The notes beneath the pieces are model-generated. The model was not told the DNA's origin. It worked only from the letters and a program-made list of their open reading frames with translations, and searched no databases. From positions 606,273 through 670,272 of the forward strand of contig CP070829.1 of the NCBI GenBank assembly GCA_020344755.1: a stretch of DNA of 64,000 nt, given 5' to 3'. The translations under genes were made by a program, and so were the position numbers. The stretch comes from Gemmatimonadales bacterium. GTDB lineage: Bacteria; Gemmatimonadota; Gemmatimonadetes; Longimicrobiales; Gaopeijiaceae. Positions 27,873-63,998 of this stretch are shown here, piece by piece. The stretch's first letter is position 1. Every line of letters starts with the position of its first letter.

Positions 27873-27990
27873 CCAGATGCCGGAGCCGAGGGAGCGGGTG
27901 ATCGGGGCAACTGACGGTGACCGGGATGCCAGGGCAAGCCTCCGAACCGGACGTTGACCGGGCATGGCGGGACCTTAACTTCCCTTGAAC

Positions 27991-30057
27991 ATGGCCGACA
28001 CCCTTCCCCACGACCGGCGGGTTCCGCCGCGGGTCCTGATTCTGTCCGTCCTGGCACTGGTGGTGCCGGTGGCGACGACGCTCGCGGTTCCCCACGCCGT
28101 CGGGGACTACGGCGCCCTTTTCTGGCTCGCGGCGCTCATTCCGGCCTTCGCCCTCTCGTTCTACCGTGGAATCCGAGGGGTCGCCTCGGCCCTGGTGCTC
28201 GGGCTCGTGGCCATGCTGGTGACCTACGGGGTGGCCTCCTGGATGCTGCTTCCGATCCCCGGGGCCCTTACCTGGGTCGTGGTGGCGTACCTGATCATCG
28301 CCCTCTGGATCGCCGTACAGGCCGAATACATGCACCGTGAGCGGGACGCGGTGGAGCGCATGGCCTTCACCGATGCCCTCACGGGTCTGCCGAATCGCCG
28401 ACACGCCCTGCTGCACCTGACCAAGGAGTTCGCCGCAGCGCAGCGGGGGCGGGCCGTGACCGTCGTGCTCTTCGACCTGGACCGGTTCAAGCAGTTCAAC
28501 GACACCTACGGCCACGCTGCGGGGGACGACGCGCTCCGCGCCTTCGGAGAGATCCTGGCGGGCCTCTCCCGGCAGATGAATCTCTCGGGTCGCTTGGGGG
28601 GGGAGGAGTTCGTCAGCATCCTCGGCGGCGCCAATTCCCAGGGGGCCGTGGTCTTCGCCAACCGGGTGTGCGAGGCCCTGCGAGATCGGAATCTCGGAGA
28701 CGGCCCCCTCACCGTCAGCGCCGGGGTGGCGTCGTTCCGTCCCGAGATGGAGGCCATGGAGGAACTCCTGGCCGCTGCGGACTCGGCGCTCTACGAGGCC
28801 AAGCGTGCGGGGCGCGACACCGTGGAGGTCTACGCCGGCGGGCCGCTCGAGCCAGCCGACCCTTCGACGCGGCGCCGTCACCGCGATTCTGAGGAGCACC
28901 AGGCCGAGAGTGGAGGTGCCTCCACCGGCGGCACTCCCGATCGCAGGTCTGCGTCCCGCGCCCGGATCGAACCGTCGGGACTGGGCCGTTCCCGCCGTGT
29001 CCTGCTCGTGGAGTCCGAGTCCCACATGACGGACATCCTCCTGACCTACCTGGCCTCGGAGGAGTTCGACGTGCTGCACGCGCCGGACGTCCGCGCCGCC
29101 TTTCTTGAGCTGGACGGGTCTGTGGACATCCTCGTCTCCAACCTCCACCTCCCCGGGGGGGGAGGGCCCCAGCTCGTCACGGCCGTGAAGGCGCGCTGGC
29201 CAGCGATCCAGGTGGTCGTGACCACGGGTGTGGAAGGAACCCAGGCCGCCGTGGAGGCCCTCCGGGCCGGAGCCGACAGTTACCTGGTCAAGCCGTTCGG
29301 GGTCCCGGAGCTGCGCCGTCACCTGGTGGAGGCCATGGAGCGCCGCTCGACTCTGCTGGAGGGTGCCTCCCATGCCCCGGAACTCACGGACGACGACAAG
29401 GCCCGGGTCCGGGCCCGGCAGGCGCACGAGAGCGTCCGCCGAGGTGTCATGGACCTGGTCAGGGCGGTGGAGCTGCGAGACCCGTTCACCCGGGGACACT
29501 CGGCTCGGGTGGCGGCCTACGCGGCGGTTCTCATCGACGGACTGGATCCAGGCCGCAGCCAGGTGGACCGGGACCGGCTTCAGCTGGCCTGTGAAGTGCA
29601 TGACCTGGGGAAGATCGCCGTGCCGGACGCCATCCTGAACAAGGAGGGCCGCCTGACCGAAGCCGAGATGGACCAGGTCCGGACCCATCCCCGGGTGGGA
29701 CGCCAGATGTTGGCTCCTCTCCTGGACGACGAACTGATTCTCGGTGTGGTGAGCTGGCATCACGAACGGTGGGACGGGACGGGATATCCGGACCACCTGG
29801 CGGGCCAGGCGATCCCGGTGGCGGCCCGCGCGGTGGCCGTTGCGGACACGCTGGATGCCCTGACCCGGCCCCGTGCGCATCGGGGAGCCGTGCCATGGGA
29901 CGAAGCGGTCGAACAGATCCTCGCTCAGTCCGGGACGGGCTTCGATCCGACGCTGGTGTCGCACATGGAACGTGTGCTTCCGGAGCTGAAACGCATCCAT
30001 GACGAGTCGGGGGGCGTAGCCTTCCCGGGCGACTCCGTCGAGGGGACGGAGGGCTGA
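27991..30057 (+). CDS. Membrane GGDEF - degenerate receiver - HD-GYP protein (c-di-GMP turnover)
   Basis: A 688-residue inner-membrane signalling protein. Residues about 13-110 form four or so membrane helices. Residues about 120-285 are a GGDEF domain with an intact GGEEF motif (203-207), so diguanylate cyclase activity is likely; the inhibitory I-site reads RQMN rather than RxxD. Residues about 340-455 are receiver-like, but the phosphoacceptor is Asn384 (LVSNLHLP) and the acidic pocket reads VESE, so it should not be phosphorylated. Residues about 480-670 are an HD-GYP phosphodiesterase with HDLGK and HHERWDGTGYP intact. ATG 27991 lacks a Shine-Dalgarno site and may be leaderless. The domain order suggests a switchable bifunctional enzyme. 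Confidence 0.9.
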   Translation: MADTLPHDRRVPPRVLILSVLALVVPVATTLAVPHAVGDYGALFWLAALIPAFALSFYRGIRGVASALVLGLVAMLVTYGVASWMLLPIPGALTWVVVAYLIIALWIAVQAEYMHRERDAVERMAFTDALTGLPNRRHALLHLTKEFAAAQRGRAVTVVLFDLDRFKQFNDTYGHAAGDDALRAFGEILAGLSRQMNLSGRLGGEEFVSILGGANSQGAVVFANRVCEALRDRNLGDGPLTVSAGVASFRPEMEAMEELLAAADSALYEAKRAGRDTVEVYAGGPLEPADPSTRRRHRDSEEHQAESGGASTGGTPDRRSASRARIEPSGLGRSRRVLLVESESHMTDILLTYLASEEFDVLHAPDVRAAFLELDGSVDILVSNLHLPGGGGPQLVTAVKARWPAIQVVVTTGVEGTQAAVEALRAGADSYLVKPFGVPELRRHLVEAMERRSTLLEGASHAPELTDDDKARVRARQAHESVRRGVMDLVRAVELRDPFTRGHSARVAAYAAVLIDGLDPGRSQVDRDRLQLACEVHDLGKIAVPDAILNKEGRLTEAEMDQVRTHPRVGRQMLAPLLDDELILGVVSWHHERWDGTGYPDHLAGQAIPVAARAVAVADTLDALTRPRAHRGAVPWDEAVEQILAQSGTGFDPTLVSHMERVLPELKRIHDESGGVAFPGDSVEGTEG

Positions 30058-49402: not shown

Positions 49403-50626
49403 TCAGGCGTGCACCGGCACGCCGGCCTTGACCCGAGCCAGAAGCGGCGATGCCCCTCCCAGCCAGTACGAGAGCTCCGAGGGGTGGTCCACCCCCCAGA
49501 TCGCCAGGTCGGCGCGGAGCCCCTCACGGAGTTGCCCCCGGTCCGAGAGTCCCATCGCCGAGGCTGCGTGGCGCGTGACCCCGCAAAGGGCCTCCTCCGG
49601 CGTCAGCCCGAAGAGCGTGCAAGCAAGGTTCATGGCCAGACGCAGGGACCGCACCGGTGAGGATCCGGGGTTCAGGTCGGTGGCCACCGCCATGTCCACA
49701 CCGTGATTCCGGAAGGAAGCGACCGGAGGCCTCCTCTCCGCACCCAACACGAGGTAGGCCCCCGGAAGCAGTACCGCAGTGACACCGGCCCGCCCCATGG
49801 CCCGCGCGCCATCGTCGGAGGTGTACTCCAGGTGATCGGCCGACGCGGCGCCCCACTCGGCGGCGTACCGGCCCCCGTCCCCGTCCTCGAGCTGGTCGGC
49901 GTGGAGTCGCAGGACCAGCCCCGCGTCACGTGCTCGGCGGAAGAACGGCTCCACCTCCCGCGGGGCGAAGGCGATCCCCTCCAGGAAGGCGTCGACGGCG
50001 GTGATCAATCCCTCGCCCAAGGCGGCCGGTAGCATCTCGTTCGCCGCAAGGTCCAGGTAGGCGTCCCGCCGACCCGAGAACTCCGGGGGCACCGCGTGAA
50101 GCGCCAGGAGAGTGCCCTTGACCTCCACGCCGGCCATGGGGCCGGCCTCTCGAGCCGCCCGGAGCATGCGGAGCTCGTCGGCCACCGTGAGCCCATATCC
50201 GGACTTGACCTCGACCGTGGTGACCCCGTCGGTCGCCAGGTCCTGCAGCCGGAACGCGGCACCCCTCGTGAGCTCCTCCCGAGAAGCGGCCCGGGTGGCC
50301 CGCACGGTGCTCAGGATCCCTCCGCCCTGCCGGGCCAGCTCCGCGTAGCTGATGCCCCGGAGCCGGGCCTCGAACTCCTGAGCTCGGTTGCCGCCGAAGA
50401 CGGCGTGGGTGTGACAATCGATGAGGCCGGGTGTGATCCAGCCGCCCTCGGCGGAATGGACCTGGCGGGCCAGCGCCCCCGGGGTTCCCGGGAGGTCCGC
50501 ACGGCGGCCGATCCACGCGATGTGCCCACCGCGGATCCCCACCGCCCCGTCCCGGATCGACCCGTAGGGCTCGGGTCCCGGGATCATCGTGGCGAGGTGC
50601 GCATCCACCCAGAGGGAATCGAACAT
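49403..50626 (-). CDS. hutI: Imidazolonepropionase
   Basis: Third step of histidine breakdown: hydrolyses imidazolone-5-propionate to N-formimino-L-glutamate. The product (407 residues from ATG 50626) is an amidohydrolase with the metal-binding HxH in PGLIDCHTHAVFGGNR, EFEARLRGISYAE, VEVKSGYGL, LHADQ, SADHLEY and AVATDLNPGSSP, all typical of HutI. A GTG at 50653 would extend it by nine residues toward the divergent hutF. It stands alone on this strand, separated from hutUH by the plus-strand hutF. Confidence 0.94.
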   Translation of the reverse strand: MFDSLWVDAHLATMIPGPEPYGSIRDGAVGIRGGHIAWIGRRADLPGTPGALARQVHSAEGGWITPGLIDCHTHAVFGGNRAQEFEARLRGISYAELARQGGGILSTVRATRAASREELTRGAAFRLQDLATDGVTTVEVKSGYGLTVADELRMLRAAREAGPMAGVEVKGTLLALHAVPPEFSGRRDAYLDLAANEMLPAALGEGLITAVDAFLEGIAFAPREVEPFFRRARDAGLVLRLHADQLEDGDGGRYAAEWGAASADHLEYTSDDGARAMGRAGVTAVLLPGAYLVLGAERRPPVASFRNHGVDMAVATDLNPGSSPVRSLRLAMNLACTLFGLTPEEALCGVTRHAASAMGLSDRGQLREGLRADLAIWGVDHPSELSYWLGGASPLLARVKAGVPVHA

Positions 50627-50637
50627 GTGAATCTCGG

Positions 50638-50666
50638 TTGACGGGACTGGCACGGGAATCTAGGGT
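50638..50666 (+). promoter_or_regulatory. Candidate promoter of hutF
   Basis: TTGACG (50638-50643) and TAGGGT (50661-50666) are separated by exactly 17 bases. The -35 is near consensus and the -10 is weak. If used, transcription would begin almost at ATG 50675, and the AGGGTGA that otherwise looks like its ribosome site would not be transcribed. The two readings exclude each other. The 48-base gap must also serve hutI. Confidence 0.4.
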
Positions 50667-50674
50667 GACGCCCC

Positions 50675-52051
50675 ATGGCTCGGTACTTGGCACCCGTGGC
50701 TCTCCTCCCCGGAGGCTGGGCGGAGAACGTCGTCTTCGAGGTGGACTCGGAGGGATCCCTCCAGTCCGTGACCGAGGGGTTGGCTACGGTAGCGGGGTCG
50801 GTGGACGCACGCCTCCCGGGGGCGGTGGTGCCCGGGGTGGTGAATGGCCACTCGCATGCCTTCCAGCGGGCGCTGGCGGGAGGCGCAGAGACCCGAACCG
50901 CAGCCGGGGACTCCTTCTGGACGTGGCGCGACCAGATGTACCGTCTCCTGGGTTCGATCTCGCCGGAGGCGGTGGAGGCAGTGGCCGCGCAACTCTACGT
51001 GGAGCTGCTGCGGCAGGGGTACACCCGTGTGGTGGAGTTCCATTACCTCCACAACGATCCAACTGGAGCCCCTTACGGGGATCCCACGGAGATGGCCCGA
51101 CGGATCGTCCGTGCGGCTGAGCGCGCAGGGATCGGGCTCACACTCGTTCCCGTGCTCTATCGGACCTCGGACTTCGGAGGAGTCCCGCCCACGGAGGGCC
51201 AGCGCCGCTTCGTCCTGGAGGTGGACTCCTTCCTCCAGTTGGTGGAGGCTGTCCAGGACTGGAGCTCCTCGCTCGTCTCTCCGGGATTCGCTTTTCACTC
51301 TCTTCGGGCGGTGACGCCACGGGAGATGGAGGCCGTCCTCGAGTCGGTCGCCCGAGAGGGACTCCCGTGCCACATCCACGTCGCCGAGCAGCCGCGGGAG
51401 GTGGAAGCCTGTCGCAACTGGTACGGAATGCGGCCGGTGGAATGGCTGCTGGACCAGTTGCCCGTAGGCCCCGACTGGCACCTGATCCACTGCACCCACA
51501 TGGTCGAGCGAGAGATCCAGGGGCTAGCCAGATCCGGGGCCACCGCGGTCGTGTGCCCCACCACGGAGGCGAACCTTGGAGACGGTATCTTCCCCCTCCA
51601 GCGCTTCCAGTCGCTCGGGGGCTCGCTCGCCGTGGGCTCGGACTCGCACGTCTCCACCTCGCCGGTGGAGGAGCTCCGCTGGCTGGAGTATGCCCAGCGG
51701 CTCGTGCAAGGGTCCCGGGCCGTCGCGGCGGACCAGGACACACCTTCTGTGGCGCGAGCCCTGCTGACCTGGGTCTGGGAGGGCGGAGCCCGCTCGGCGG
51801 GAATCGATGCGGGCCGGCTCGCCCCGGGCCAGCGCGCCGACTTCGTTGTCCTGGATCGTTCCCACCCAGTGCTCACCGGGCGTTCCGGGGACGGATTACT
51901 GGACGCATGGATCTTCTCCGGGAACGACACCCCAGTCCGGGAAGTGTGGGTGGCGGGCCGAAGAGTGGTGGTCGATGGGCGGCACCCGGAGGGCGGGTCG
52001 GTGGCCAGCTCGTTCCGGGCGGTGATGCGGCGCCTCCTCGCCCCGGCCTGA
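50675..52051 (+). CDS. hutF: Formimidoylglutamate deiminase
   Basis: Converts N-formimino-L-glutamate to N-formyl-L-glutamate and ammonia, the branch of histidine degradation that needs HutG to finish. The 458-residue amidohydrolase shows the HxH motif in VNGHSHAFQRALAG, then FWTWRDQMYRL, CHIHVAEQPREVEAC, HLIHCTHM, CPTTEANLGDGIFP and SDSHVSTSP, all hallmarks of HutF rather than guanine deaminase. AGGGTGA lies six bases before ATG 50675. It runs opposite to the other hut genes and converges on hutU with 18 bases between. No hutG is visible in the window. Confidence 0.93.
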   Translation: MARYLAPVALLPGGWAENVVFEVDSEGSLQSVTEGLATVAGSVDARLPGAVVPGVVNGHSHAFQRALAGGAETRTAAGDSFWTWRDQMYRLLGSISPEAVEAVAAQLYVELLRQGYTRVVEFHYLHNDPTGAPYGDPTEMARRIVRAAERAGIGLTLVPVLYRTSDFGGVPPTEGQRRFVLEVDSFLQLVEAVQDWSSSLVSPGFAFHSLRAVTPREMEAVLESVAREGLPCHIHVAEQPREVEACRNWYGMRPVEWLLDQLPVGPDWHLIHCTHMVEREIQGLARSGATAVVCPTTEANLGDGIFPLQRFQSLGGSLAVGSDSHVSTSPVEELRWLEYAQRLVQGSRAVAADQDTPSVARALLTWVWEGGARSAGIDAGRLAPGQRADFVVLDRSHPVLTGRSGDGLLDAWIFSGNDTPVREVWVAGRRVVVDGRHPEGGSVASSFRAVMRRLLAPA

Positions 52052-52069
52052 CCCGACCTCGCGATCCCC

Positions 52070-53752
52070 CTACAGCATTGGGTGGCGAAGGTCGTCGGCT
52101 GCCCGAAGCGTCTCGACCGCCTCCGGATATCCGGCGTCGGCGTGGCGAAGGACGCCCAGCCCGGGATCGTTGGTCAGCACCCGCTCGATCCGGAGCTCCA
52201 TCTCGGGCGTTCCATCGGCCACCAGGACCTGCCCCGCGTGGAGGGAGTTGCCGATGCCCACTCCTCCACCGTGATGGAAGGAGACCCAGGACGCCCCGGA
52301 GGCGGTGTTCACCAGCGCGTTCAGGATCGGCCAGTCCGCCACCGCGTCGGTGCCGTCCTTCATCCCCTCCGTTTCCCGGAAGGGTGACGCGACGGATCCC
52401 GTGTCCAGGTGATCCCGCCCGATCACCACGGGCGCCGAAAGCTCACCCTTGGCCACGAGCTGGTTCAGCGCCACTCCGAACCGGGCCCGGTCTCCCTGTC
52501 CGAGCCAGCAGATCCGCGCGGGAAGGCCCTGAAACGCCACCTGCTCCTGCGCCATGCGGATCCACTGGACCAGGTGCTCATCCTGGGGAAACATCTCGAG
52601 GACGAGCTGATCGGTGCGGTGCAGTTCCTCAGGGTCACCGGAAAGGACGGCCCAGCGGAAGGGGCCCTTCCCCTGGCAGAAGAGTGGCCGAATGTAGGCG
52701 GGGACGAACCCGGGGTAGGCGAACGCGTCCTCGAACCCCGCCTCCTGGGCGTACCCTCGGAGGTTGTTCCCGTAATCCACGGCGACGGCCCCGGCCCGCA
52801 TGAGCTCCACGATGGCCTCGCAATGGACCCGGATGGACTGCATGGACCGCCGCAGGTACTCGTCCGGGTCCGAGGCCCGCAACGCATTCGCGCCGTCCAG
52901 GGAGAGACCCGCGGGGACGTAGCCGTTCAGGGGATCGTGCGCCGAGGTCTGATCCGTCACGATGTCCGGCACGACGCCACGGTGCACCAGCTCGGGAAGC
53001 ACTTCGGCGCAGTTGCCGACCAACCCTACGGACAGGGCCTCATGCCGCGCCGTCGCCTCCCGGATCCAACCCAGGGCTTCGTCCAGCTGCTCCGTCATGC
53101 GGTCACAATATCGGGTCTCTACCCGGCGGCGGATCCGATTCGGGTCCACCTCCACGCAGAGGATCGCAGCTCCGTTCATGGTCCCGGCCAGCGGCTGGGC
53201 TCCTCCCATTCCTCCCATTCCCCCGGTGAGGATCCAACGGCCGGCGAGGCGGCCTCCGAAGTGGGCATGGGCCATGGCGCCGAAGGTCTCATAGGTCCCC
53301 TGCAGGATCCCCTGGGTCCCGATGTAGATCCAGGATCCCGCCGTCATCTGCCCATACATCATGAGCCCTTTCCGCTCCAGGTCCCGGAAGTGCTCCCAGG
53401 TGGCCCACTTCCCCACCAGGTTCGCATTGGCGATCAGGACCCGGGGGGCCCCGGTGTGCGTCTTGACGACACCCACCGGCCTTCCGGACTGAACCAGCAG
53501 GGTCTCGTCGGCCTCCAGCTCCAGAAGGCTCCGGACGATCGCGGCCAGGCTGGCCGGGTCGCGGGCGGCCTTGCCCGTACCACCGTAGACCACCAGATCC
53601 TCAGGCCGCTCCGCGACATCGGGATCGAGGTTGTTCAGGAGCATCCGGAGCGCCGCCTCCTGCTGCCATCCGCGACAGTGCAGCGTGCTTCCCCGAGGCG
53701 CCCGATAGGGCTGGGTGAGGAGTTCTTCGGCCACGGAAAGCGTCTGGGTCAT
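52070..53752 (-). CDS. hutU: Urocanate hydratase
   Basis: Second step of histidine breakdown: adds water to urocanate to form imidazolone-propionate, with tightly bound NAD. The 560-residue product shows the family motifs [31 protein letters not shown], the NAD-binding [25 protein letters not shown] with a conserved cysteine, and [17 protein letters not shown] 53752 overlaps the hutH stop as ATGA; an open frame to 53986 lies within hutH and is not used. Length is normal. Confidence 0.95.
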
Positions 53753-55281
53753 GGCTCTGCCCGGTAATGGGGATCGATGACGTCTGCACGGAACCGACCC
53801 TGGTCCACCAGGTGTCGGAGTCCCTCGAGCTCGGCGGCGAGGGACCGGTCTCCTTCGAGGGGCGAAAGGGCCTCCCGAACGGCGGTATGGGCTCCCTCGA
53901 CGCCCACGCCGGCCCGGAGGGGTCGGCGGTACTCCAGGCCCTGTGCCGCGGCCGCCAGCTCCACGGCGACAACGTATTGGAAGCACTCCACCGATCGCAC
54001 CAGCTTCCGGGCCGCCGTGAGCCCCATGGAGATGTGATCCTCCTGATTGGCGCTGGTCGGTACCGAGTCTACGCTGGCGGGGTGGGCCAGGACCCGCATC
54101 TCCGCCAGGAGATCACATGCCGTGACCTGCGCAATCATGTACCCGGACTCCAGGCCCGCCCGCCTGGCCAGGAACGCGGGCAGTCCCTGGGAAAGGTCCG
54201 GATTCAGCAGGCGTTCGATCCGTCGCTCGGAGACGGCAGCCAGGTCCGCCAACGCGATGCACGCGAAGTCGAGAGCCTGACTGACCACCTGGGCGTGGAA
54301 ATTCCCCGCGCTGGTCACCGCACCGGCCTCGGCGAAGATGAGGGGATTGTCCGTGACGCTGTTGGCCTCCGTCTCCAGGACCCCCCGCACGTACTCGAGC
54401 GCTTGACGGGCCGCGCCGTGGATCTGCGGAATGCAGCGAAGCGCGTAGGCATCCTGGATCCGCGGATCTCCTTCCCGGTGGGATTCCCGAATCTCGGAAT
54501 CCCGAAGGAGGCGGCGCTGGAGGGTGGCGGAGCTGGACTGCCCCGGATGGGGCCGAACCGCCGAGACCTCTGGCCGGAAGGCCTCGGGAGTGCCCAGGAG
54601 GGACTCGAGACTCATTGCGCCCGCCGCCTCCAGCGCCGCGAGCGCATCCTCGGCCTGGAGAAGTGCCAGGATGCCCAGAGCGGTGGTGGCCTGGGTGCCA
54701 TTGATCAAGGCCAATCCCTCCTTGGCTCGCAGCTCGAGGGGATCGGCCCCGGCCGCCGCCAGCACCGGGCCGGAGGGTCGGCGCTCGTCTTCGATCCAGA
54801 GTTCCCCCTCACCCAGGAGGGTCAGGGCCACGTGGGCCAGTGGAGCAAGGTCTCCGCTGGCCCCCACGGATCCCGCGGACGGAACCACGGGGATCCAGTC
54901 CCGCTCGAGCATCTCGAGCAGCCGCTCGACGACGGTGATTCGGACCCCAGAGACGCCACGAGCCAAAGCATTGGCCCGCAATAACATGATTGCTCTGACC
55001 TGAGAAACGGAAAGAGGTTGACCTACGCCCACTGCGTGGGACCGGATGAGGTTGGACTGGAGGAGGGTCCGCTCCTCCGGAGAGATGACCACCTCCGCCA
55101 GGCGACCGAAGCCGGTGGTCACACCATAGACCCGCTCTCCCCGCGCCACCCGTGATTCCACCAGGTCACGGCTTGCCTGCATCCCCTCCTTCGCCGACGC
55201 AGCCAGTGCCACCTTCACTCCCCCGCGACTGACGGACCGAACGTCCTCGAGGGCGAGATCCCGCCCGGTCAGGCGGATCAC
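53749..55281 (-). CDS. hutH: Histidine ammonia-lyase
   Basis: First step of histidine breakdown: removes ammonia from histidine to give urocanate, using the self-made MIO prosthetic group. The MIO triad Ala-Ser-Gly is in [16 protein letters not shown]. Other motifs are [35 protein letters not shown] and SGNFHAQ-like [10 protein letters not shown]. From GTG 55281, preceded by a G-rich ribosome site, the product has 510 residues, the usual length. The frame is open to 55623 but that is non-coding. First gene of hutH-hutU. Confidence 0.94.
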
Positions 55282-55430
55282 GCGGTCCCCCCTGTCCCCC
55301 CGGGCCCGACCCACATCCGGGCAGACAGCCTCGAGACCCGCGAGGCGTCCGGGGTGCGGGGACGACCGATCAGTTCGAGTTCGGGGTGCGGAGTCATGAA
55401 CCTGGCCGGGGGAGGTGGCACGGACGCCGA

Positions 55431-55463: not shown

Positions 55464-56588
55464 CTAGTGCCGCCCTGTGGCGGCGAATTCCTCGACGTCG
55501 CGCCAGACGTCCGCGGTCGCATACGCCAGGGGAAACAGGGCGACCCCCGCCAGGCCGTGTGCCCGCACGAACTCCAGCTTCTCCCTCAGACTCTGCCGGT
55601 CCTCGAACCACCCTTGCACCCACCCACCGCCGGCGTCCCGGAAGACGTAGTACGGGATTCCGCTCTCGGGATCCCTCTGCGTTCCGTGTCGAGCCGCCTC
55701 ACGCCAGGCACGTGGCGAGTTCGGCAGTACCGACACAGGCGCCGCCAACGGTGCAGCGACCCCTTCCCCCCGGGTCGGGGAGCCAGGAAGCTCGGTCTCG
55801 GTCGGCCACTGGTATCCGTAGAGAGGGACCCCCATGACGAGCCGCGACCGGTGGATTCCCAGGGCGTCGTAGCGCGCCACCACCGTCTCCCAATTCAGCC
55901 GACCCCACCCCCTCAACGCGGCGACGGGCCCCGCGCGGGTGTCGGTTCGGTCGTGGAGGTCGTAGCCCTGAACCACGAGGAAGTCCGCGATGGCCGCAAG
56001 TGCACGCTCGTTGTATGCATCGGCGTCGTCGAAGGCCAGTGTGAAGATCGAGAGCCCGAGCCCGGGATCCATGGCCTGCATTCCGGCCCTGAGCCCGGCG
56101 GCGAACGCGGTATAGCCATCCCGGGCCTCCCGGGGCACCGGCTCGAAGACCTCCACGTCCAGGTGGAGGCCCCGGATCTCCGGGGAGTCCCGCAAGAGGT
56201 CCAGGAGGCCCTCCACGGCCCGGTCGACGGCAAGGGGATCCGAAAAGAGCTGGGCGAACGCCCCCGATCCATGGAGGGTGACGGTGGGAACGACCTGGAC
56301 CCCTCGGCTCACATGGTGCGCCACCAACGGATCCCATTCGTGGGGCCATCCATGGAGGTCTCCGGGTGATCCGTCGGGAGCCAATTCCAGCTCGAAGAAG
56401 AAGAGCTGACGGAGGTGATCGGACGGGTATTCCCTCCAGGCGTCGCCGGCCCAGTAGGGGTGGTATCCGGCAAGGAAGAACGTACCCGCCTCGGGTACGA
56501 CCGGCTGGGGAGGGGACGAGGCGCAGCCGGCCATGACGAGCGCTGCGACGGGGCCATAACACCAACGCGGCAAACGGGAGTGCCGCAC
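55464..56588 (-). CDS. GH18-like glycoside hydrolase lipoprotein of the exopolysaccharide operon
   Basis: A 374-residue exported protein. GTG 56588 shares one base with the upstream stop (TAGTG). The signal ends in a lipobox with Cys22 (LVMAGC). The body is a TIM-barrel of the GH18 type: AGYHPYW near the start, GLHLDVEVFE (140-149) with E146 as candidate catalytic acid, VQGYDLHD and MGVPLYGYQW. Of the classic DxxDxDxE, only the last D and E remain. Such hydrolases beside a synthase usually trim or release the polymer, as the hydrolase parts of PgaB and PelA do. It is the last gene of the operon. Confidence 0.8.
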   Translation of the reverse strand: MRHSRLPRWCYGPVAALVMAGCASSPPQPVVPEAGTFFLAGYHPYWAGDAWREYPSDHLRQLFFFELELAPDGSPGDLHGWPHEWDPLVAHHVSRGVQVVPTVTLHGSGAFAQLFSDPLAVDRAVEGLLDLLRDSPEIRGLHLDVEVFEPVPREARDGYTAFAAGLRAGMQAMDPGLGLSIFTLAFDDADAYNERALAAIADFLVVQGYDLHDRTDTRAGPVAALRGWGRLNWETVVARYDALGIHRSRLVMGVPLYGYQWPTETELPGSPTRGEGVAAPLAAPVSVLPNSPRAWREAARHGTQRDPESGIPYYVFRDAGGGWVQGWFEDRQSLREKLEFVRAHGLAGVALFPLAYATADVWRDVEEFAATGRH

Positions 56589-58513
56589 TAGTTCTCCCGG
56601 TCGGCTGCCGACTCCATGCGAACGAAGGAGATCCTGCGGGGCTGGCCCGCCTCCAGGTGCCCTACCGGGATCCGCATTCCCCACGGGGTCGACGCGAAAT
56701 CCGACGGCCTTCCCGCGACCCAGGGTACCACACCCTCGGTTCCCCTCGGGAGTGTCACGTCCACCCAGAGACCGTCCAGAGACAATCCCGAGGCCGCAAG
56801 CTCCACGATGAGCGTAGGGACCCCTGTGGGCGAGACGCCCCGATATCCCTGCACATTGTCGTTGTCTCCGGTGACGAAACGGAGTCGCAACCGCTGTCGG
56901 GCCAGCCACCAGTCCGCCAGGTCCCGTCCCTCCGCCAGCCACCAGTCCCCTTCGGCTCGAGCCGTATCGGCCACCTCCACCAGCGCTGCACGGCGCTCGG
57001 CTGAGTTCAGGATCTGGGTCCGGCCCGAGATCACTGCCAGTCCCCCGAGCGACCGAAGCTTCGCGGCGCCCTCGAGGTAGGCATCGGCCAACCGCTGGGA
57101 CCGGATGGCGCTCTCCTGGACGAACACGTTGTAGTCGTCCTTCATGAGACGCGGGAGTACGACGATGGGCCCCGCCCGTGTCTCGTGGACCTCCGGGCTC
57201 GCGGAGCGTGCACCATTCACCGCCAGGAGGTAGCGACCCCCGGCCCGGGCCCACCCCTCGAGGGTGAAGGCGTCGAACGTCTCTTCCGGCGGATGAAGCC
57301 CAACGGGTGCCTCCCCGGTCCAGTCCTCCGAATCCAACCAGCTCCGGCCGAGGCGGAGGAACTGCTCCTGGGCGGTGCGTCCCGCCACCGGGGCATGGTC
57401 CGTGGTCTGGCTGGCCACCTCACCGGACCGAAGCAGTCGCTGACCGAGCGCCAAGTCCTCCTGTACCAGACTGGTTACCGCGAAGTAGGTCGCGGGTACG
57501 TCCGCCTCCTGGAGAACGTCGGCCACGGCCCAGGCGTTCTCGGGCAAGGATTCCACGTCCACCGAATGGAGCATCGCCGCACGGTTGCCTTGGGGCCACG
57601 CGGCGGGCGCCGCAGTGGGAAGGCCCGCGGCCCAGAGGATCCCGTTTCTGACCACCATGCGCAGCAGCCGTGCATCCTCCGGGGTCGCTGCCTGTCCCAG
57701 CCGCATGCCGAACCAGGCCACGCGTCCACCGGAAGGCGTGCGGCGAACGGCCGCGGCCGCGTCGGCGCCGCCGCCGCTCTCGTCGGGCGCCGGGTTGAGC
57801 GCCCAATCGGACCAGAAGACCCGGGATCCACCCATGCGAAGGGCCGGGGATCGGTCCCCCCGAAGCTGAAGGCGCGTGCCCGGGTCCAACCCCGGGGAGA
57901 GAGCGTGACCACCGGGCACCGTGACGTGCAGCGCCCGGCGCTCCTGGAGCTCCCTGACGTCCTCCGCTCCGGTGAGGTCGGCAACCGGGCCCCAACCACG
58001 CCATCCGCACGCGCCGTCACGGGCTCCCATCGACCAGTTGGCCACCACCCCTCCGCCCCGCTGGAGATGACGCTCGACGGCATCGAGCTCCCGGTCGGAA
58101 AGACACAGCGCCTCCGCGAGCACCAGCACCTGGTCGGCGCTCAGCGTGTCCAGGGTCGCAACGGAGTACGCGAGCTGGGCGCGCCCTCCGACGTCCTCCA
58201 CCAGGCTCCACCACCGCTCCAGGCTCTCCGGGTAGAAGGACGGATCGAGGTAGTAGCGCGCGCTGGCCTCGGACCAGTAGACCACCGCAGGGAACGGCGT
58301 CGGGCCGTAGGCTGGCCGCACCGCTGGGCGCGCCAGCGGGGGAGGCGGGGGCGTCGCGACGAAGCCTGGGGAGAGCTCCCGGACGTCCACATTCTCCCAC
58401 AGGGTCACCGCGGCGGCTACGGCTCCCGCCCCGACGAAGCCCAGCACCATCAGACCGCCCAACCAGATCCAGGAATCCCTGGCCCTGGGGAGGGGTTCAC
58501 GCCGACGGCGCAT
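56588..58513 (-). CDS. Membrane-anchored NodB-like polysaccharide deacetylase-type protein
   Basis: A 641-residue protein with one N-terminal membrane helix (16-40) and a Pro-rich linker. Residues about 74-298 resemble a Rossmann/class I amidotransferase-like domain without a catalytic triad I can name. Residues about 310-500 resemble a NodB deacetylase: MLHSVDVE (catalytic-base position D319), ASQTTDH where the usual HxxxH is QxxxH (Q369, H373), and GLHPPEE. A beta-rich C-terminus follows. The metal site is therefore altered and activity is uncertain. ATG 58513 overlaps the small membrane gene by 17 bases. Context suggests modification of the polymer in the periplasm, like PgaB or PelA. Confidence 0.72.
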   Translation of the reverse strand: MRRRREPLPRARDSWIWLGGLMVLGFVGAGAVAAAVTLWENVDVRELSPGFVATPPPPPLARPAVRPAYGPTPFPAVVYWSEASARYYLDPSFYPESLERWWSLVEDVGGRAQLAYSVATLDTLSADQVLVLAEALCLSDRELDAVERHLQRGGGVVANWSMGARDGACGWRGWGPVADLTGAEDVRELQERRALHVTVPGGHALSPGLDPGTRLQLRGDRSPALRMGGSRVFWSDWALNPAPDESGGGADAAAAVRRTPSGGRVAWFGMRLGQAATPEDARLLRMVVRNGILWAAGLPTAAPAAWPQGNRAAMLHSVDVESLPENAWAVADVLQEADVPATYFAVTSLVQEDLALGQRLLRSGEVASQTTDHAPVAGRTAQEQFLRLGRSWLDSEDWTGEAPVGLHPPEETFDAFTLEGWARAGGRYLLAVNGARSASPEVHETRAGPIVVLPRLMKDDYNVFVQESAIRSQRLADAYLEGAAKLRSLGGLAVISGRTQILNSAERRAALVEVADTARAEGDWWLAEGRDLADWWLARQRLRLRFVTGDNDNVQGYRGVSPTGVPTLIVELAASGLSLDGLWVDVTLPRGTEGVVPWVAGRPSDFASTPWGMRIPVGHLEAGQPRRISFVRMESAADREN

Positions 58514-58733
58514 CGGCCGCCAAAGGCTCCACGGAGGTCCCGGAGGCGGAGCGTGTCCGCTCCTCCACGGGCTCGTACTGCACGAAGTATCGGAGCGCAG
58601 AGTCCGCGGGCTCCAGGGAACTGGGCTCCCGCGCGAGTCGAAGCTTGTAGGCCACGTACGTCACCACCGCGAGTACGATGGTCACGAGGATGGTGACCAC
58701 CACGATGGTAACCAGGAGATCGACGACGTTCAT
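58497..58733 (-). CDS. Small membrane protein downstream of the GT2 synthase
   Basis: A 78-residue protein with one long N-terminal hydrophobic helix (LLVTIVVVTILVTIVLAVVTYVAY written across residues 6-29) and a polar tail rich in Glu, Ser and Pro. It begins nine bases after the GT2 synthase stop and overlaps the next gene. It resembles no family I can name. By position it could be an accessory subunit of the synthase, in the way PgaD assists PgaC, but it is shorter and has one helix, not two. Confidence 0.7.
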   Translation of the reverse strand: MNVVDLLVTIVVVTILVTIVLAVVTYVAYKLRLAREPSSLEPADSALRYFVQYEPVEERTRSASGTSVEPLAADAPSA

Positions 58734-58742
58734 GCACCTACC

Positions 58743-60098
58743 TCATTGTATGGGAGAGACCATGGGGGCCCCCGGCTCGGGCCGCCCCACACGCTCGAGC
58801 TTGCCCCATCGCATGTCGAGCCGGAGCGCCTCCTCGAGCGTGGCGAACGTCTTCACCACGTCCAGGAAGAGCACGAAGAAGAACCGATAGATCATCGCCA
58901 GCGGAACGAGGGAGAGGCTTTCCTCCTCCATGGCGACCGTGACCAGGGCCGCGACCAGGTCCAGCAGGGTCAGAAGGACCACCCAGTAGAGGATGAGCTC
59001 GGACGCTCCGAATCCCAGCGCCACGATGGCGAAGAACAAGTGTGCGAAGATGTTGAGAATCGGCCAGATCACCGCCTCGAAGCCCATCTGAAGGGTGGAG
59101 ACGAAGAGGGGGAAGTCGGGGAGGGGATCGAGGAGGACTCCCCTGCGCTTCCGAAGGGCCTGGAGGATGCCCCGGGTCCACCGATACCGCTGCTGGATCA
59201 GGTCCAGCCATCGGATCGGCGCTTCGGTCCACGCGATAGCCTGGTCTTCGTAGACCACGCGCCATCCGGCGAACATGAGGCTTAGGGTGAGATCGGCGTC
59301 CTCGGCGAAGGTGTCGCGCTTGTAGCCTCCCACCTCCTCGATCGCCTCCCTGCGGAACATCCCCACCGGGCCGGGAACGATGTTCACGGCGGCGACGAAA
59401 CCCTGGGCGCGCCGAGGCATGTTCAGGCCTTCGATGTACTCCAGTGCCTGCAGGCGGGTGATGAACTTCTCCCGGTTCTCCACCTTCACGTTTCCGGCCA
59501 CGGCGCCCACGCACGGATCCGCGAAGTGCCGCACCGCCTTCCGAAGGGTCTGTGGCTCCAGGTGGGAGTCGGCGTCCATGCAGAAGAGGAGGGGGTGCCT
59601 CGCGGCCTGGATCCCTACGTTCAGGGCGCTGGCCTTCCCCCCATTCGGCTTGGTGAGGACACGGACCAGTGCGTTGCCGTGGTGGCCCTCCCATCGCGTC
59701 GCGACCTCCAGCGTCTCATCGCTGGAACCGTCGTCCACCACGATCACCTCGAACTCCGGGTAGTCCAACGCCAGAACACTCTGGAGGGCCTTGTCGAGCA
59801 CCTTGCCCTCGTTGTAGGCGGGGACCAGGACCGAGACCGGGGGCACTTCCCGCATGGGCTTCACCCCGAGGACGTTCCGCTCGGCGTGGCCCAGGTAGGC
59901 GAACCAGAGGAGGCTGAAGAAACGCAGGAAGAGGATTGAGAGGAAGATGATGAGGAGCACCATCACCGCCCGCATGAGCAGGAGCTGGAGCTCCGGACCC
60001 ACGAGGACCACGAGCATGGCGAACCCCACCGTCACCGCGGTGAGGACCACCACAAGGGCCAAAGATGCGACCACGGACCACCGGATCCGCGTCTTCAT
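58743..60098 (-). CDS. Processive family 2 glycosyltransferase (PgaC-like exopolysaccharide synthase)
   Basis: A 451-residue inner-membrane synthase. Two N-terminal helices (about 8-34 and 38-66) precede a GT2 domain with PAYNEG, VVDDGSSD (120-127), the DxD-type MDADSH (174-179), FAEDAD (264-269, catalytic-base region) and the processivity motif QRYRW (303-307). Three or more helices follow (about 331-415). Size and topology match PgaC/IcaA-type poly-N-acetylglucosamine synthases better than BcsA, which carries a PilZ domain that is absent here. The sugar is not provable from sequence. ATG 60098 overlaps the exporter gene stop as ATGA. Confidence 0.88.
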   Translation of the reverse strand: MKTRIRWSVVASLALVVVLTAVTVGFAMLVVLVGPELQLLLMRAVMVLLIIFLSILFLRFFSLLWFAYLGHAERNVLGVKPMREVPPVSVLVPAYNEGKVLDKALQSVLALDYPEFEVIVVDDGSSDETLEVATRWEGHHGNALVRVLTKPNGGKASALNVGIQAARHPLLFCMDADSHLEPQTLRKAVRHFADPCVGAVAGNVKVENREKFITRLQALEYIEGLNMPRRAQGFVAAVNIVPGPVGMFRREAIEEVGGYKRDTFAEDADLTLSLMFAGWRVVYEDQAIAWTEAPIRWLDLIQQRYRWTRGILQALRKRRGVLLDPLPDFPLFVSTLQMGFEAVIWPILNIFAHLFFAIVALGFGASELILYWVVLLTLLDLVAALVTVAMEEESLSLVPLAMIYRFFFVLFLDVVKTFATLEEALRLDMRWGKLERVGRPEPGAPMVSPIQ

Positions 60099-62404
60099 TC
60101 GGCGCCCCCCCTACGAAGGACGTCCAGGAGTCCCAGGCTCAGGCGGGCACCCCAGGAGTGGTATCCCTGGAATCGGGTCTGGAGGTAGAAGACCTCCAAC
60201 GCCGCCGTGAAGCGATCACGGCGCATCCGAAGCCCGGTCTCGCCCGAGAAGTGCGGGACCCGATCGAAACCGTCCTCAGGCCGCTCGTCCATGAGGGCGA
60301 CACCCGTGGAGACCCGTCCCGTGACCGTCCAGACCCGGTTCAACTCCAGGGCAATGCGAGCGAAGGGTCCAGTCGTGACCACCAGCCTGGGGTCCCACCA
60401 GAGCCGACGGGGACCCGTTGCGGGTGCCGGGTCCTGGAATCCGAGGGCTTGTGCCGAGAGACCCAGGGTGAAGCCGGGTCGGAGCGCGCGTCCGACGGCC
60501 AAGACCCCTTCGTAGCGAAGTGATCCCGACGCCCCGGCAACTCCGCCCGCGTCCAGGTGGGCCAGGCGTGCCTCGGCCCAGAGATCCCAATAGGGCGTGA
60601 GCTGGTTGGTGATCGTCACCCGGACCTCGTCCAGCGTCACGTCGGCGAAGACACTCTCGAGCGTCGCGGTGCGGCCGTAGGCCGGACCATGCTGGTAGGC
60701 CGCCTCGAAAGTATAGGTCCCCAGGTCCGTGAAGAGCGCGGAGGCACCGCCGGAGAGATCCATCTTCCCGGACCGTACCGACTCGACGCCGATCTGGACC
60801 GCGGTTCGGACCGTACCCCAACGCCACCACCGGCCGCCCTCGGCGTGGGCGAACATCCCGGACGGGGCCGCCGAAGCGCCCGAAGGGTCATAGCCCTCCA
60901 GCCAGCGGTTTCCGGCGAAGACGTTCCAGACCCAGTCGCCTTCCGTGCCCAACCATTCGGCACCCAGGTCGGCCATGAGGAAGTCGTCCGTGTCCCGAAG
61001 GGTAGATCCCCGACTCCCGAGACGCGGACTCTCCGCCTCATAGATGGCCACGTCCACGTCTTCCCGGAGCGCCACGAGACCCTCTTCCGCCTGGCGGTTC
61101 CCGGGATTCACGGCCAGCGCGGCCTGGTACCGGCGGGCGGCCCCGTCCCGGTCCCCTCGCCAACGGGCCATGTCCCCGAGGAGCACCTGCAACTGGGCCT
61201 CTTCGAGCCGTCGCGGAGTGCCGTCAGCGAGGGGTGGAAGCGCAATCGGGCCCTGCGCCTGGACCTGCGAAAGAAGCTCCTGGTACCGCGTTTCTGCGGC
61301 GCCCTGCTCCCCGGTCCAGCTCTCCAGCTGGGCCATGCGGAACCGCGTCGCGGGGTCCACCGCCCCGAGGCGTTCCACCTCCCTCAACGCTGCCAGCGCT
61401 CCGCTGAAGTCCCGGAGTTCGTACTGGAGCAGGTCGGCATAGGCGCGCCATCCGTCCCGGTGGTCCGGCGCGGCCTCGAGGAACGCCCGGTACAGGCGTG
61501 CAGACTCCTCGAGGTCTCCCACGGCCCGGGCCTCGGCAGCTCGCTCGAGCAGTGTGGGTGGTTCGGGTCGCTCCTCCACCGGCACCGCCAGGGCCGCTTC
61601 CACGTCGGCGCGCAGTTGGAGCGCGCCGAGTCTGCGGAGGGTTGCTTCGTCTAGAGTGGAGAGAATCGCCCGAGCCGCGTCCAGGTCGCCCGAGGCGTAC
61701 TGGACCCGCGCGAGCTCTACCAGAAGGGCTGGATTGCCCGGGTTGCGCTCAAGGGCCCACTCGAGGACCCGGGCGGCGTCGCCGTACCGCTGGGCCCAGG
61801 CCAGGGCGCGGGCCCACTCCAACGGCAAGCCGTCGTCCACGGCTCCCTGGTTCCAAAGGGTCTCGTATTCCTCGGATGCGGCATCTACGCGCCCCAGGTC
61901 TCGGAGCATACGGGCCCGGAGGAGGCGCAGATCCGGCTCATCCCGCTCCCAGATCAGCTCAGCGAGTTGGCCGACCGCCTCGTCACCCTGCCCCGCGCGG
62001 AATAGCGTGAGGGCGTACTCGCGGCGCACGCCCCGGTCCCGGGGGTAGCGGGCGAGGTACTCCCGGAACAGGGCCAGGGCCTCGTCGTAGCGCTCCGCCT
62101 CGATAAGCGGGAGTACCCGGTCCCAGAAGACCTCCGCGGGGCCCCGGGGGACCGCCGCGTCGGTGATGGGAAGGGGCTCCGGGGGAGGGGGTGCGGTCCG
62201 CTGCACCAGGGTCCCGGTCGCCACCGGGGTGGTGCTCACCGGGAAGTTCATACCGGACTCACGAAAGCCCGAGCTGAGCACATATCGCCGAGGTAGGACC
62301 ACAAGGACCAGCACCAGGGTGGCGGTCACGAGGAAGATCGCGGCGACCCCGAACTTGAGGGGATAGTGGGAGCCGCCGGGCCTACCGTCAGTCCTTCCCA
62401 GCAC
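60095..62404 (-). CDS. TPR and outer-membrane barrel exporter of the exopolysaccharide operon
   Basis: A 769-residue envelope protein. An N-terminal hydrophobic helix (about 18-38) and Pro-rich linker precede tetratricopeptide repeats from about 75 to 450 (for example EALALFREYLARYPRD, AARVLEWALERNPGNPALL, AARRYQAALAVNPGNRQ). Residues about 480-769 are amphipathic strands typical of an outer-membrane barrel. PgaA, PelB and BcsC share this periplasmic-TPR plus barrel plan for moving polymer out of the cell. GTG 62404 has GGAGG six bases upstream and overlaps the preceding gene by 17 bases. An uncleaved helix would tie it to the inner membrane, as in PelB. Confidence 0.85.
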   Translation of the reverse strand: MLGRTDGRPGGSHYPLKFGVAAIFLVTATLVLVLVVLPRRYVLSSGFRESGMNFPVSTTPVATGTLVQRTAPPPPEPLPITDAAVPRGPAEVFWDRVLPLIEAERYDEALALFREYLARYPRDRGVRREYALTLFRAGQGDEAVGQLAELIWERDEPDLRLLRARMLRDLGRVDAASEEYETLWNQGAVDDGLPLEWARALAWAQRYGDAARVLEWALERNPGNPALLVELARVQYASGDLDAARAILSTLDEATLRRLGALQLRADVEAALAVPVEERPEPPTLLERAAEARAVGDLEESARLYRAFLEAAPDHRDGWRAYADLLQYELRDFSGALAALREVERLGAVDPATRFRMAQLESWTGEQGAAETRYQELLSQVQAQGPIALPPLADGTPRRLEEAQLQVLLGDMARWRGDRDGAARRYQAALAVNPGNRQAEEGLVALREDVDVAIYEAESPRLGSRGSTLRDTDDFLMADLGAEWLGTEGDWVWNVFAGNRWLEGYDPSGASAAPSGMFAHAEGGRWWRWGTVRTAVQIGVESVRSGKMDLSGGASALFTDLGTYTFEAAYQHGPAYGRTATLESVFADVTLDEVRVTITNQLTPYWDLWAEARLAHLDAGGVAGASGSLRYEGVLAVGRALRPGFTLGLSAQALGFQDPAPATGPRRLWWDPRLVVTTGPFARIALELNRVWTVTGRVSTGVALMDERPEDGFDRVPHFSGETGLRMRRDRFTAALEVFYLQTRFQGYHSWGARLSLGLLDVLRRGGAE

Positions 62405-63998
62405 GGTCGGCCTCCAGGAGCGAGCGGATCTGCTCACCATCCACGGGGTGGCTCAGGACCTCTACCGAGAGCTCACGCTTCTTTCTTCCCGACTCCGCCC
62501 CCACCCGGGCACGCAGGCGATCCAGGAAAGGTTCCGCCTGTGCCGCCCGGGCACCCTGGAGAAGGACCATGGGCTCTGCTCCATCGCACAGGAGGTCCCC
62601 GTCCTCGTCCCGGATCTCCGCATCCATGATCTCGACCAGACGGGCGCTCTTGATGCCGGTGGCACTCACGGTGAGGAGGGAGAACACCCCGAGATCCGAA
62701 GTCGACGCACGCCGCAGCACCTCGGACCGGAATGCCGCCGGGTCCAGCCGGCCTCCCTCGGTCCGCCCACCGTCCGTCTCCTCGCCGGCGGAGTCCTCGT
62801 CCTGAACCATGGGGCGGGCATTGGTGGACATGGCCTGGGTCAGCCGAAGCTCCAGCTCCCGGAAGTCGACACCGCCACTCAGGCAATCGTCGGCGCCGGC
62901 CTCGAAGAGCTGGACCCGGTCCATGGATCGAATGGCGTCGTCCGACACGAACACCAGGGCAGCCTGTGTCAGCGGCCGCAGGGCCCGGCACGCCCGAATC
63001 GCGTCTCGAACCTGCCCACGCGATGCGTGAACGACCACCGAACCATGCCCCGTCTGAGCCTGGATCTCGTTCACGGCATCGAAGGGATCGGTAACAACGG
63101 CGGCTTCGAACGTGGTCTCGGCCCACATCTTCAGGTCCCGCGCAGGGGCGTCCGCCAGAGAAACGAGGAGGAGTCGGCGACGGTCGAGGCCCTCCCGGTC
63201 ACGCCTGCGGCGGGAGGGGAACGCCTCGGGCCGCACCATTCCTGCACCGGGCTTGAGCTGCAGTGAGACCGGTGCCTCCTCGTCCGCCTCGTGGGGGACC
63301 GAGCGGATGAGCGACATCTCGAACAGGCCACCCGCCGTGGGAACGACCACCAGCCGGCCGGTGGTGCCGTGGACCAGCCAATCGGCGGAGGATGGGAGAC
63401 GTCCGGTCTCCGTGTCCACGGAGAAAGTGACGCACACGGTTGCTTCCTGACCCCGTACCCAACGAAGGAAGGCGCCACCCAGAAGGGTCTTGATCCCTCC
63501 CCCGAGGAAGAGAGTCCCCGGATCCACTGCCAGCCGCTCGACACCCCCGGGGATCTGGCCCTGGAGTTCCTCCAGTACCTCTTCGGGGGCGATGGTCCGG
63601 GCCGCGCGCAACTCGAAGTCGTCGCGGAAGCCCAGAATCTGGAGGGCACCACTGCGCCAGTGTTCGTCGAGGTCGAAGCCCCAACCCCGAGCCGCGTAGA
63701 GGAGGCCCCGGGCGTCCGCGCCCGTGAGAAGCACGGTCGCTTCCCCAGAGCGGAGCCCTTCGTGGAGGAACTGGAGGGCGGTCACCATCTTGGCGGGGCC
63801 CGGAGGGCCGACGACAAGGTAGCTGCCTCCCTTCTCGAGCCCACCGAGCCGCTCGTCGACCGGCCCGATTCCCAAGGGGATCCGATGGATTGGGGTGACC
63901 GAGCCCTTCCCGGCGCTGCGCTTGTCTGTCGGCAGGGACCGATCTCGCACCGGAGTCGGGCCAGCGCCGCTCCGAGTCGAGGTGAGTGATTCGCTCAT
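62388..63998 (-). CDS. BcsE-like c-di-GMP receptor: degenerate RecA/KaiC-like, receiver-like and GGDEF-like domains
   Basis: A 536-residue cytoplasmic protein at the head of the operon. Residues about 40-250 resemble a KaiC/RecA-type P-loop domain, but the P-loop reads GPPGPAKM (64-71), lacking the Thr/Ser after Lys. Residues about 275-390 look like a receiver without a phosphoacceptor Asp (VVVHASRG). Residues about 420-500 align with GGDEF: the catalytic motif is DGAEP (472-476), while RDED (463-466), exactly five residues upstream, matches the c-di-GMP-binding I-site RxxD. This is the domain order of BcsE, the cellulose-secretion c-di-GMP sensor. The start is at the window edge (ATG 63998), so an upstream extension is possible. 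Confidence 0.82.
   Translation of the reverse strand: MSESLTSTRSGAGPTPVRDRSLPTDKRSAGKGSVTPIHRIPLGIGPVDERLGGLEKGGSYLVVGPPGPAKMVTALQFLHEGLRSGEATVLLTGADARGLLYAARGWGFDLDEHWRSGALQILGFRDDFELRAARTIAPEEVLEELQGQIPGGVERLAVDPGTLFLGGGIKTLLGGAFLRWVRGQEATVCVTFSVDTETGRLPSSADWLVHGTTGRLVVVPTAGGLFEMSLIRSVPHEADEEAPVSLQLKPGAGMVRPEAFPSRRRRDREGLDRRRLLLVSLADAPARDLKMWAETTFEAAVVTDPFDAVNEIQAQTGHGSVVVHASRGQVRDAIRACRALRPLTQAALVFVSDDAIRSMDRVQLFEAGADDCLSGGVDFRELELRLTQAMSTNARPMVQDEDSAGEETDGGRTEGGRLDPAAFRSEVLRRASTSDLGVFSLLTVSATGIKSARLVEIMDAEIRDEDGDLLCDGAEPMVLLQGARAAQAEPFLDRLRARVGAESGRKKRELSVEVLSHPVDGEQIRSLLEADRAGKD

Follow-up and report, generated by a model that had tools for sequence, protein, structure and literature searches.

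Six closely packed genes on a Gemmatimonadota chromosome raise the question of whether they encode one of the classic exopolysaccharide systems or a system of their own. They lie in the window, the 64,000-nucleotide stretch of DNA analysed here, from a genome that consists of one 4.1 Mb contig. A first-pass annotation had described them as a c-di-GMP-gated exopolysaccharide operon that fits none of the classic systems, and literature searches returned no description of the operon. Our analysis finds the operon to be composite, conserved and genuine, and makes it probable that a core of five genes (A-E), together with the accessory gene F, provides synthase-dependent exopolysaccharide secretion gated by c-di-GMP.

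Organization and conservation of the operon

The six genes are the following:

A, 62388..63998, minus strand: BcsE-like protein with a RecA/KaiC-like domain, a degenerate receiver and a degenerate GGDEF domain; proposed c-di-GMP receptor
B, 60095..62440, minus strand: N-terminal membrane segment, TPR repeats and strand-rich C-terminal region; proposed exporter
C, 58743..60098, minus strand: membrane GT2 synthase, PgaC-like
D, 58497..58733, minus strand: 78 residues, single helix, conserved tail motif; proposed membrane partner of A
E, 56588..58513, minus strand: membrane-anchored alpha/beta domain, CE4-type deacetylase domain, beta-rich end
F, 55464..56588, minus strand: accessory GH18 lipoprotein of 374 aa with the lipobox VMAGC

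All six open reading frames are in place as first annotated, overlapping or nearly touching. A and B overlap if B starts at 62440, B and C overlap by 4 bp (ATGA), C and D are separated by a gap of 9 bp, and D and E overlap by 17 bp, as do E and F by 1 bp, with F starting from the GTG at 56588. From this layout a single transcript for the A-F block is plausible. More than 600 bases upstream of A lies a large open reading frame in the same direction, which we take to be a putative glutamate dehydrogenase. About 180 bases downstream of F, again in the same direction, there is an aromatic amino acid lyase gene, by context HutH, and histidine-degradation genes adjoin the operon (window 49403-55284). 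Rfam gave zero matches within the window.

The occurrence of A was assessed in a sample of 395 Gemmatimonadota genomes. The A profile matched 47 of these, five of them over no more than a short stretch in the KaiC part; with these five left out, A is carried by 42 genomes in seven families. In the neighbourhoods that were fetched, A-B-C-D-E is complete and in order at 15 distinct loci from six families. The recurrence of the same order in distant families argues that the arrangement is not due to chance, and a lack of clustering in relatives, named in the first-pass annotation as an outcome that would speak against it, did not occur. A scan for the GT2 gene C with six exact peptide patterns, using one genome per species, gave 11 loci, every one in Gemmatimonadota; those of sufficient length contain A-B-C-D-E, and the closest ones F too. 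The pairwise divergences of A to E are strongly correlated (r 0.85 to 0.96, reached by 0 of 999 permutations), as expected for joint inheritance, although common descent alone would yield the same.

The operon is patchily distributed: the five other genomes in the genus of the window contain no match to E. In the neighbourhoods examined, F is seen only in the window's own family. The conserved core therefore consists of the five genes A-E, with F as a lineage-specific add-on, and the GH18 gene can no longer be counted in the conserved set, where it had been placed at first. Some loci depart from the standard arrangement. In genome G226, a single contig, the operon is split (L083 and L088), with A and a shortened B located about 1.6 Mb from C-D-E. 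In three loci of one family (L093, L094 and L095) B is apparently present as two genes, one short and one long, and genome G046 has a second E-like gene (L032, 4520-6451) with neither C nor D adjoining.

A probable receptor of BcsE-type architecture and its proposed membrane partner

In Pfam, NCBIfam and PDB profile searches the first part of A matches KaiC and the second part receivers, including PleD. An AlphaFold model of A built from eight sequences was modest, with low overall confidence (pLDDT 68, pTM 0.39). When this model was used in a fold search, ranks 1-4 were E. coli BcsE chains, each aligned over all three domains and more than 500 columns, and KaiC ranked below them. Sequence matches and fold search together place the domains of A in the BcsE order of degenerate NTPase, receiver and GGDEF. 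At the sequence level, the REC-GGDEF segment of BcsE scored 13.4 bits against a profile of 36 A proteins, compared with a maximum of 4.3 in 2000 shuffles (1367 returned any score, with a mean of -4.1). The first domain of BcsE was not significant against this profile, nor was a profile-profile comparison of a 12-member A alignment with the single BcsE sequence. As the curated BcsE model is absent from the Pfam/NCBIfam matches of A at E-values up to 0.1, we do not file A as BcsE.

The motifs R306ATD and R415TGD of BcsE reportedly bind c-di-GMP as an intercalated dimer (PMC11470070). In the alignment to the A profile, which used no structural input, R306ATD falls on R357xxD360 of A and R415TGD on R463xxxG467D468. 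Among the 36 A proteins R357 is conserved in 35, D360 in 30, R463 in 35, and G467 and D468 in all; D360 is replaced by T in five distant members. The second motif is mostly RxxxGD rather than a strict RxxD, and the spacing of the second arginine differs from that in BcsE. On the basis of the fold matches, the profile score and the aligned, conserved motifs, A is most likely a c-di-GMP receptor that acts like BcsE, and these three lines agree with the RecA-receiver-GGDEF receptor of BcsE type that the first reading had recognized.

The 78-residue membrane protein D has no accepted family match. With 21 invariant columns in and around the helix across 10 homologues, it is a real gene, as annotated; its conserved parts are a single helix and a short motif in the tail, and it is kept in 35 loci. 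In four genomes of one genus (L075, L077, L086, L087) D directly follows A, and B, C and E are gone. No close C homologue was found in these four genomes, the best match to C having an E-value of 6e-20 at 33% identity; as the genomes are 82-88% complete, the absence of C is not proven. The same kind of gene follows A-D in L075 and L077 and C-D-E in L026, with the N-termini GEKDIR.ELDSSDLRVFTQ and GEKEVHLAVDQEELRVFTQ, so that the genes flanking D on either side seem to have been lost and D retained.

Since D is kept beside A after the loss of B, C and E, it looks like the membrane partner of A, analogous to BcsF rather than to PgaD, which changes how this protein had been read at first. BcsF of E. 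coli is a one-helix protein that brings BcsE to the membrane by adding a strand to the first domain of BcsE (PMC11470070; PMC7439463). A comparison of D with BcsF was not significant, and the match of one of 10 D members to the BcsF model (E-value 0.013) was treated as chance level; as homology is not detectable, the comparison of D with BcsF extends to function alone. D also lacks a significant match to PgaD, which has two helices as opposed to one in D.

The window's genome contains four strong GGDEF domains, which fits the proposed gating by c-di-GMP, and no match to EAL. The statement that PilZ is missing is true of the operon, whereas the genome as a whole has one weak PilZ match outside it. 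Within the window (27985-30057, plus strand) a 690-residue protein combines a GGDEF domain (GGEEF-type), a receiver and an HD domain, and possibly makes and breaks c-di-GMP.

Proposed functions in polysaccharide synthesis, modification and export

PgaC_IcaA is the top family of C, which bears out its description as a PgaC-like synthase, but the score of 205.8 bits is about half the cutoff of 422.3, and C is thus below the level of an equivalog; NodC is the second-best family. C is 33% identical to E. coli PgaC over 230 residues, and its catalytic motifs are invariant in homologues. Against the CelA model it reaches 68 bits, with a cutoff of 699, so the synthase encoded beside A is not of the cellulose (BcsA/BcsB) type. 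GT2 is the sole glycosyltransferase type in the operon, which contains neither a PelF-type GT4 enzyme nor PelG.

Relatives of C outside the phylum show that its association with CE4 and GH18 enzymes is not confined to this operon. The best GT2 matches among plasmid records are proteins of about 1100 residues; according to Pfam, those of Deinococcus and Prevotella are GH18-CE4-GT2 fusions, and the relative from a Sphingobium plasmid is a CE4-GT2 protein whose N-terminal part aligns with F (BLAST). The GT2 part of the fusion proteins is 36-40% identical to C. The four regions read around the fusion genes lack a BcsE-like receptor, a TPR exporter and D, and searches of the plasmid records with A and E gave single-domain matches only. 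The Sphingobium gene adjoins an LPG-synthase-type gene and no exporter. Given these fused proteins, the GH18/CE4/GT2 trio is a pre-existing combination, and the distinguishing parts of the operon are the BcsE-like receptor, D and the TPR exporter. A literature search for the enzyme trio in connection with c-di-GMP found none.

E matches Polysacc_deac_1 (Pfam), and its model (pLDDT 81) contains a helix, an alpha/beta domain, a CE4 domain and a beta-rich end. The CE4 fold is supported by PDB profile matches and by a fold search that returned CE4 enzymes; an assignment to CE18 was rejected on these matches, and E has no match to E. coli PgaB. The last three domains of PelA follow the same order, with the deacetylase between an alpha/beta and a beta-rich domain (PMC12022489), in line with the resemblance to PelA that had been noted. 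The catalytic motifs of E vary among relatives. In the window's E they are not intact: Q369 occupies the place of the motif 2 His, H407 that of the motif 3 Arg and R498 that of the motif 5 His, residues kept by 16, 23 and 24 of 27 relatives, respectively. Because these three residues differ from those in most relatives, deacetylase activity of the window's E appears doubtful from its motifs, and of the full synthesis, modification and export set originally put forward, the modification part is the one in doubt.

F is assigned to GH18 by Pfam (7.9e-24) and by PDB matches. In its DxxDxDxE motif the first two D are replaced, and the last D and the E, the catalytic residues at the end of the motif, are invariant in four homologues.

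For B, Pfam matches are to TPR repeats. Its score against PgaA (35 bits, cutoff 367) comes from the TPR part alone, and B is not a PgaA-type exporter by this measure. The C-terminal region is conserved and strand-rich, with no match to a known family, to a known exporter or to PgaA. Its hydrophobic alternation, equalled in 48 of 2000 shuffles, hints weakly at a barrel.

A proposed mechanism and alternative readings

We propose that A is a cytosolic protein that, in the fashion of BcsE, binds c-di-GMP between the receiver and the GGDEF domain, and that D keeps A at the inner membrane, beside the PilZ-less GT2 synthase C. In its c-di-GMP-bound form, A would assemble or switch C, which would polymerise a sugar, probably an N-acetylhexosamine, and pass the chain across the inner membrane. 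With its inner-membrane anchor, E would bind the chain in the periplasm, and in many relatives it could also act on the chain as a deacetylase. If present, F would cut the chain, and B would guide it through the periplasm and export it.

The most serious competitor, though an unlikely one, is that the locus is a divergent pga (PNAG) operon in which B corresponds to PgaA, C to PgaC, D to PgaD, and E and F to a split PgaB, with C and D sensing c-di-GMP and A as an add-on regulator. The E. coli PgaC-PgaD pair reportedly senses c-di-GMP, C is nearest to PgaC_IcaA, and the set of activities (TPR exporter, deacetylase, hydrolase) is the same, with a small membrane protein adjoining the synthase. The scores, however, reach only half the cutoff for PgaC and a tenth of it for PgaA, E is unlike PgaB and the C-terminal region of B unlike PgaA, and D is a single-helix protein without a significant match to PgaD that remains with A, not with C, in decayed operons. 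We give far less credence to the idea that no exopolysaccharide is exported and that the task of C, E and F is to make and reshape a short glycan, either chitooligosaccharide-like or belonging to the envelope, under regulation by A and D. The second place of NodC among the families of C would fit such a role, as would the LPG-synthase-type neighbour of the Sphingobium relative, but this leaves the conserved TPR protein B, with its strand-rich C-terminal region, in the middle of the operon.

A further alternative concerns A itself, which could be a signalling protein of the ATPase or receiver type, without c-di-GMP binding and with a GGDEF remnant that is purely structural. We regard this as improbable, slightly more so than a divergent pga operon. 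It draws on the Walker A motif, which is intact in many distant A members, and on the acidic residue that some receivers retain near the phosphoacceptor position. Yet the phosphoacceptor position is not conserved, the window's group keeps neither this position nor an intact Walker A, which is degenerate there, and the two motifs aligned with BcsE are among the best-conserved positions of the family. Secretion gated by c-di-GMP through a BcsE-like receptor thus remains our preferred reading.

More tentatively, and with somewhat less than even confidence, we suggest that a BcsE-type receptor and its one-helix partner form a portable c-di-GMP switch and are not an invention of enterobacterial cellulose secretion. 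In Gemmatimonadota the A-D pair would gate a PilZ-less, PgaC-like synthase in an undescribed secretion system, perhaps with a polymer of its own, and in one genus it would act apart from a polymer operon. The synthase with which BcsE works in E. coli carries a PilZ sensor itself, and the effect of BcsE alone is therefore hard to separate. A, by comparison, would stand out as the c-di-GMP input of its operon, so that the role of a BcsE-like protein could be tested directly. For a phylum in which biofilm biochemistry is scarce, the operon moreover offers a specific candidate for the matrix polymer.

Comparison with known systems

The operon fits no pga, pel or bcs type, in agreement with the composite nature first ascribed to it. 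The scores for PgaC, PgaA and BcsC are far below the cutoffs, and the HMM searches did not place all genes inside one characterised operon type, the other outcome that had been named as telling against the annotation.

With E. coli BcsE-BcsF the operon shares a receptor with the same order of three degenerate domains, in which conserved motifs align with both c-di-GMP motifs of BcsE, albeit with a different spacing of the second arginine, and a one-helix protein from the same operon as a proposed partner (D) or a known one (BcsF). Unlike in this pair, A misses the curated BcsE model and homology between D and BcsF is not detectable. In contrast to type II cellulose secretion, a PgaC-like synthase without PilZ takes the place of BcsA, and BcsB, BcsQ, BcsR and BcsG are missing from the operon.

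Similar to pgaABCD, the operon combines a PgaC-type GT2 enzyme with a TPR exporter, deacetylase and hydrolase functions and a small membrane protein. It differs in its scores, which are far below the equivalog cutoffs, in the lack of matches between E and PgaB, D and PgaD, and the C-terminal region of B and PgaA, and in the presence of a BcsE-like receptor. Instead of a deacetylase joined to GH153 as in PgaB, the hydrolase is a separate GH18 protein.

The likeness to Pel (PelA, PelB, PelD) lies in a degenerate GGDEF receptor without PilZ and in the PelA-like domain order of E, whereas the glycosyltransferase is a GT2 enzyme and not a GT4 PelF with PelE/PelG, the fold of E is that of CE4 enzymes, and the glycoside hydrolase is again a separate GH18 protein. 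The GH18-CE4-GT2 fusions of Deinococcus and Prevotella unite in one chain the activities that are distributed here over F, E and C; compared with their regions and that of Sphingobium, the Gemmatimonadota operon has in addition the BcsE-like receptor, the TPR exporter and D.
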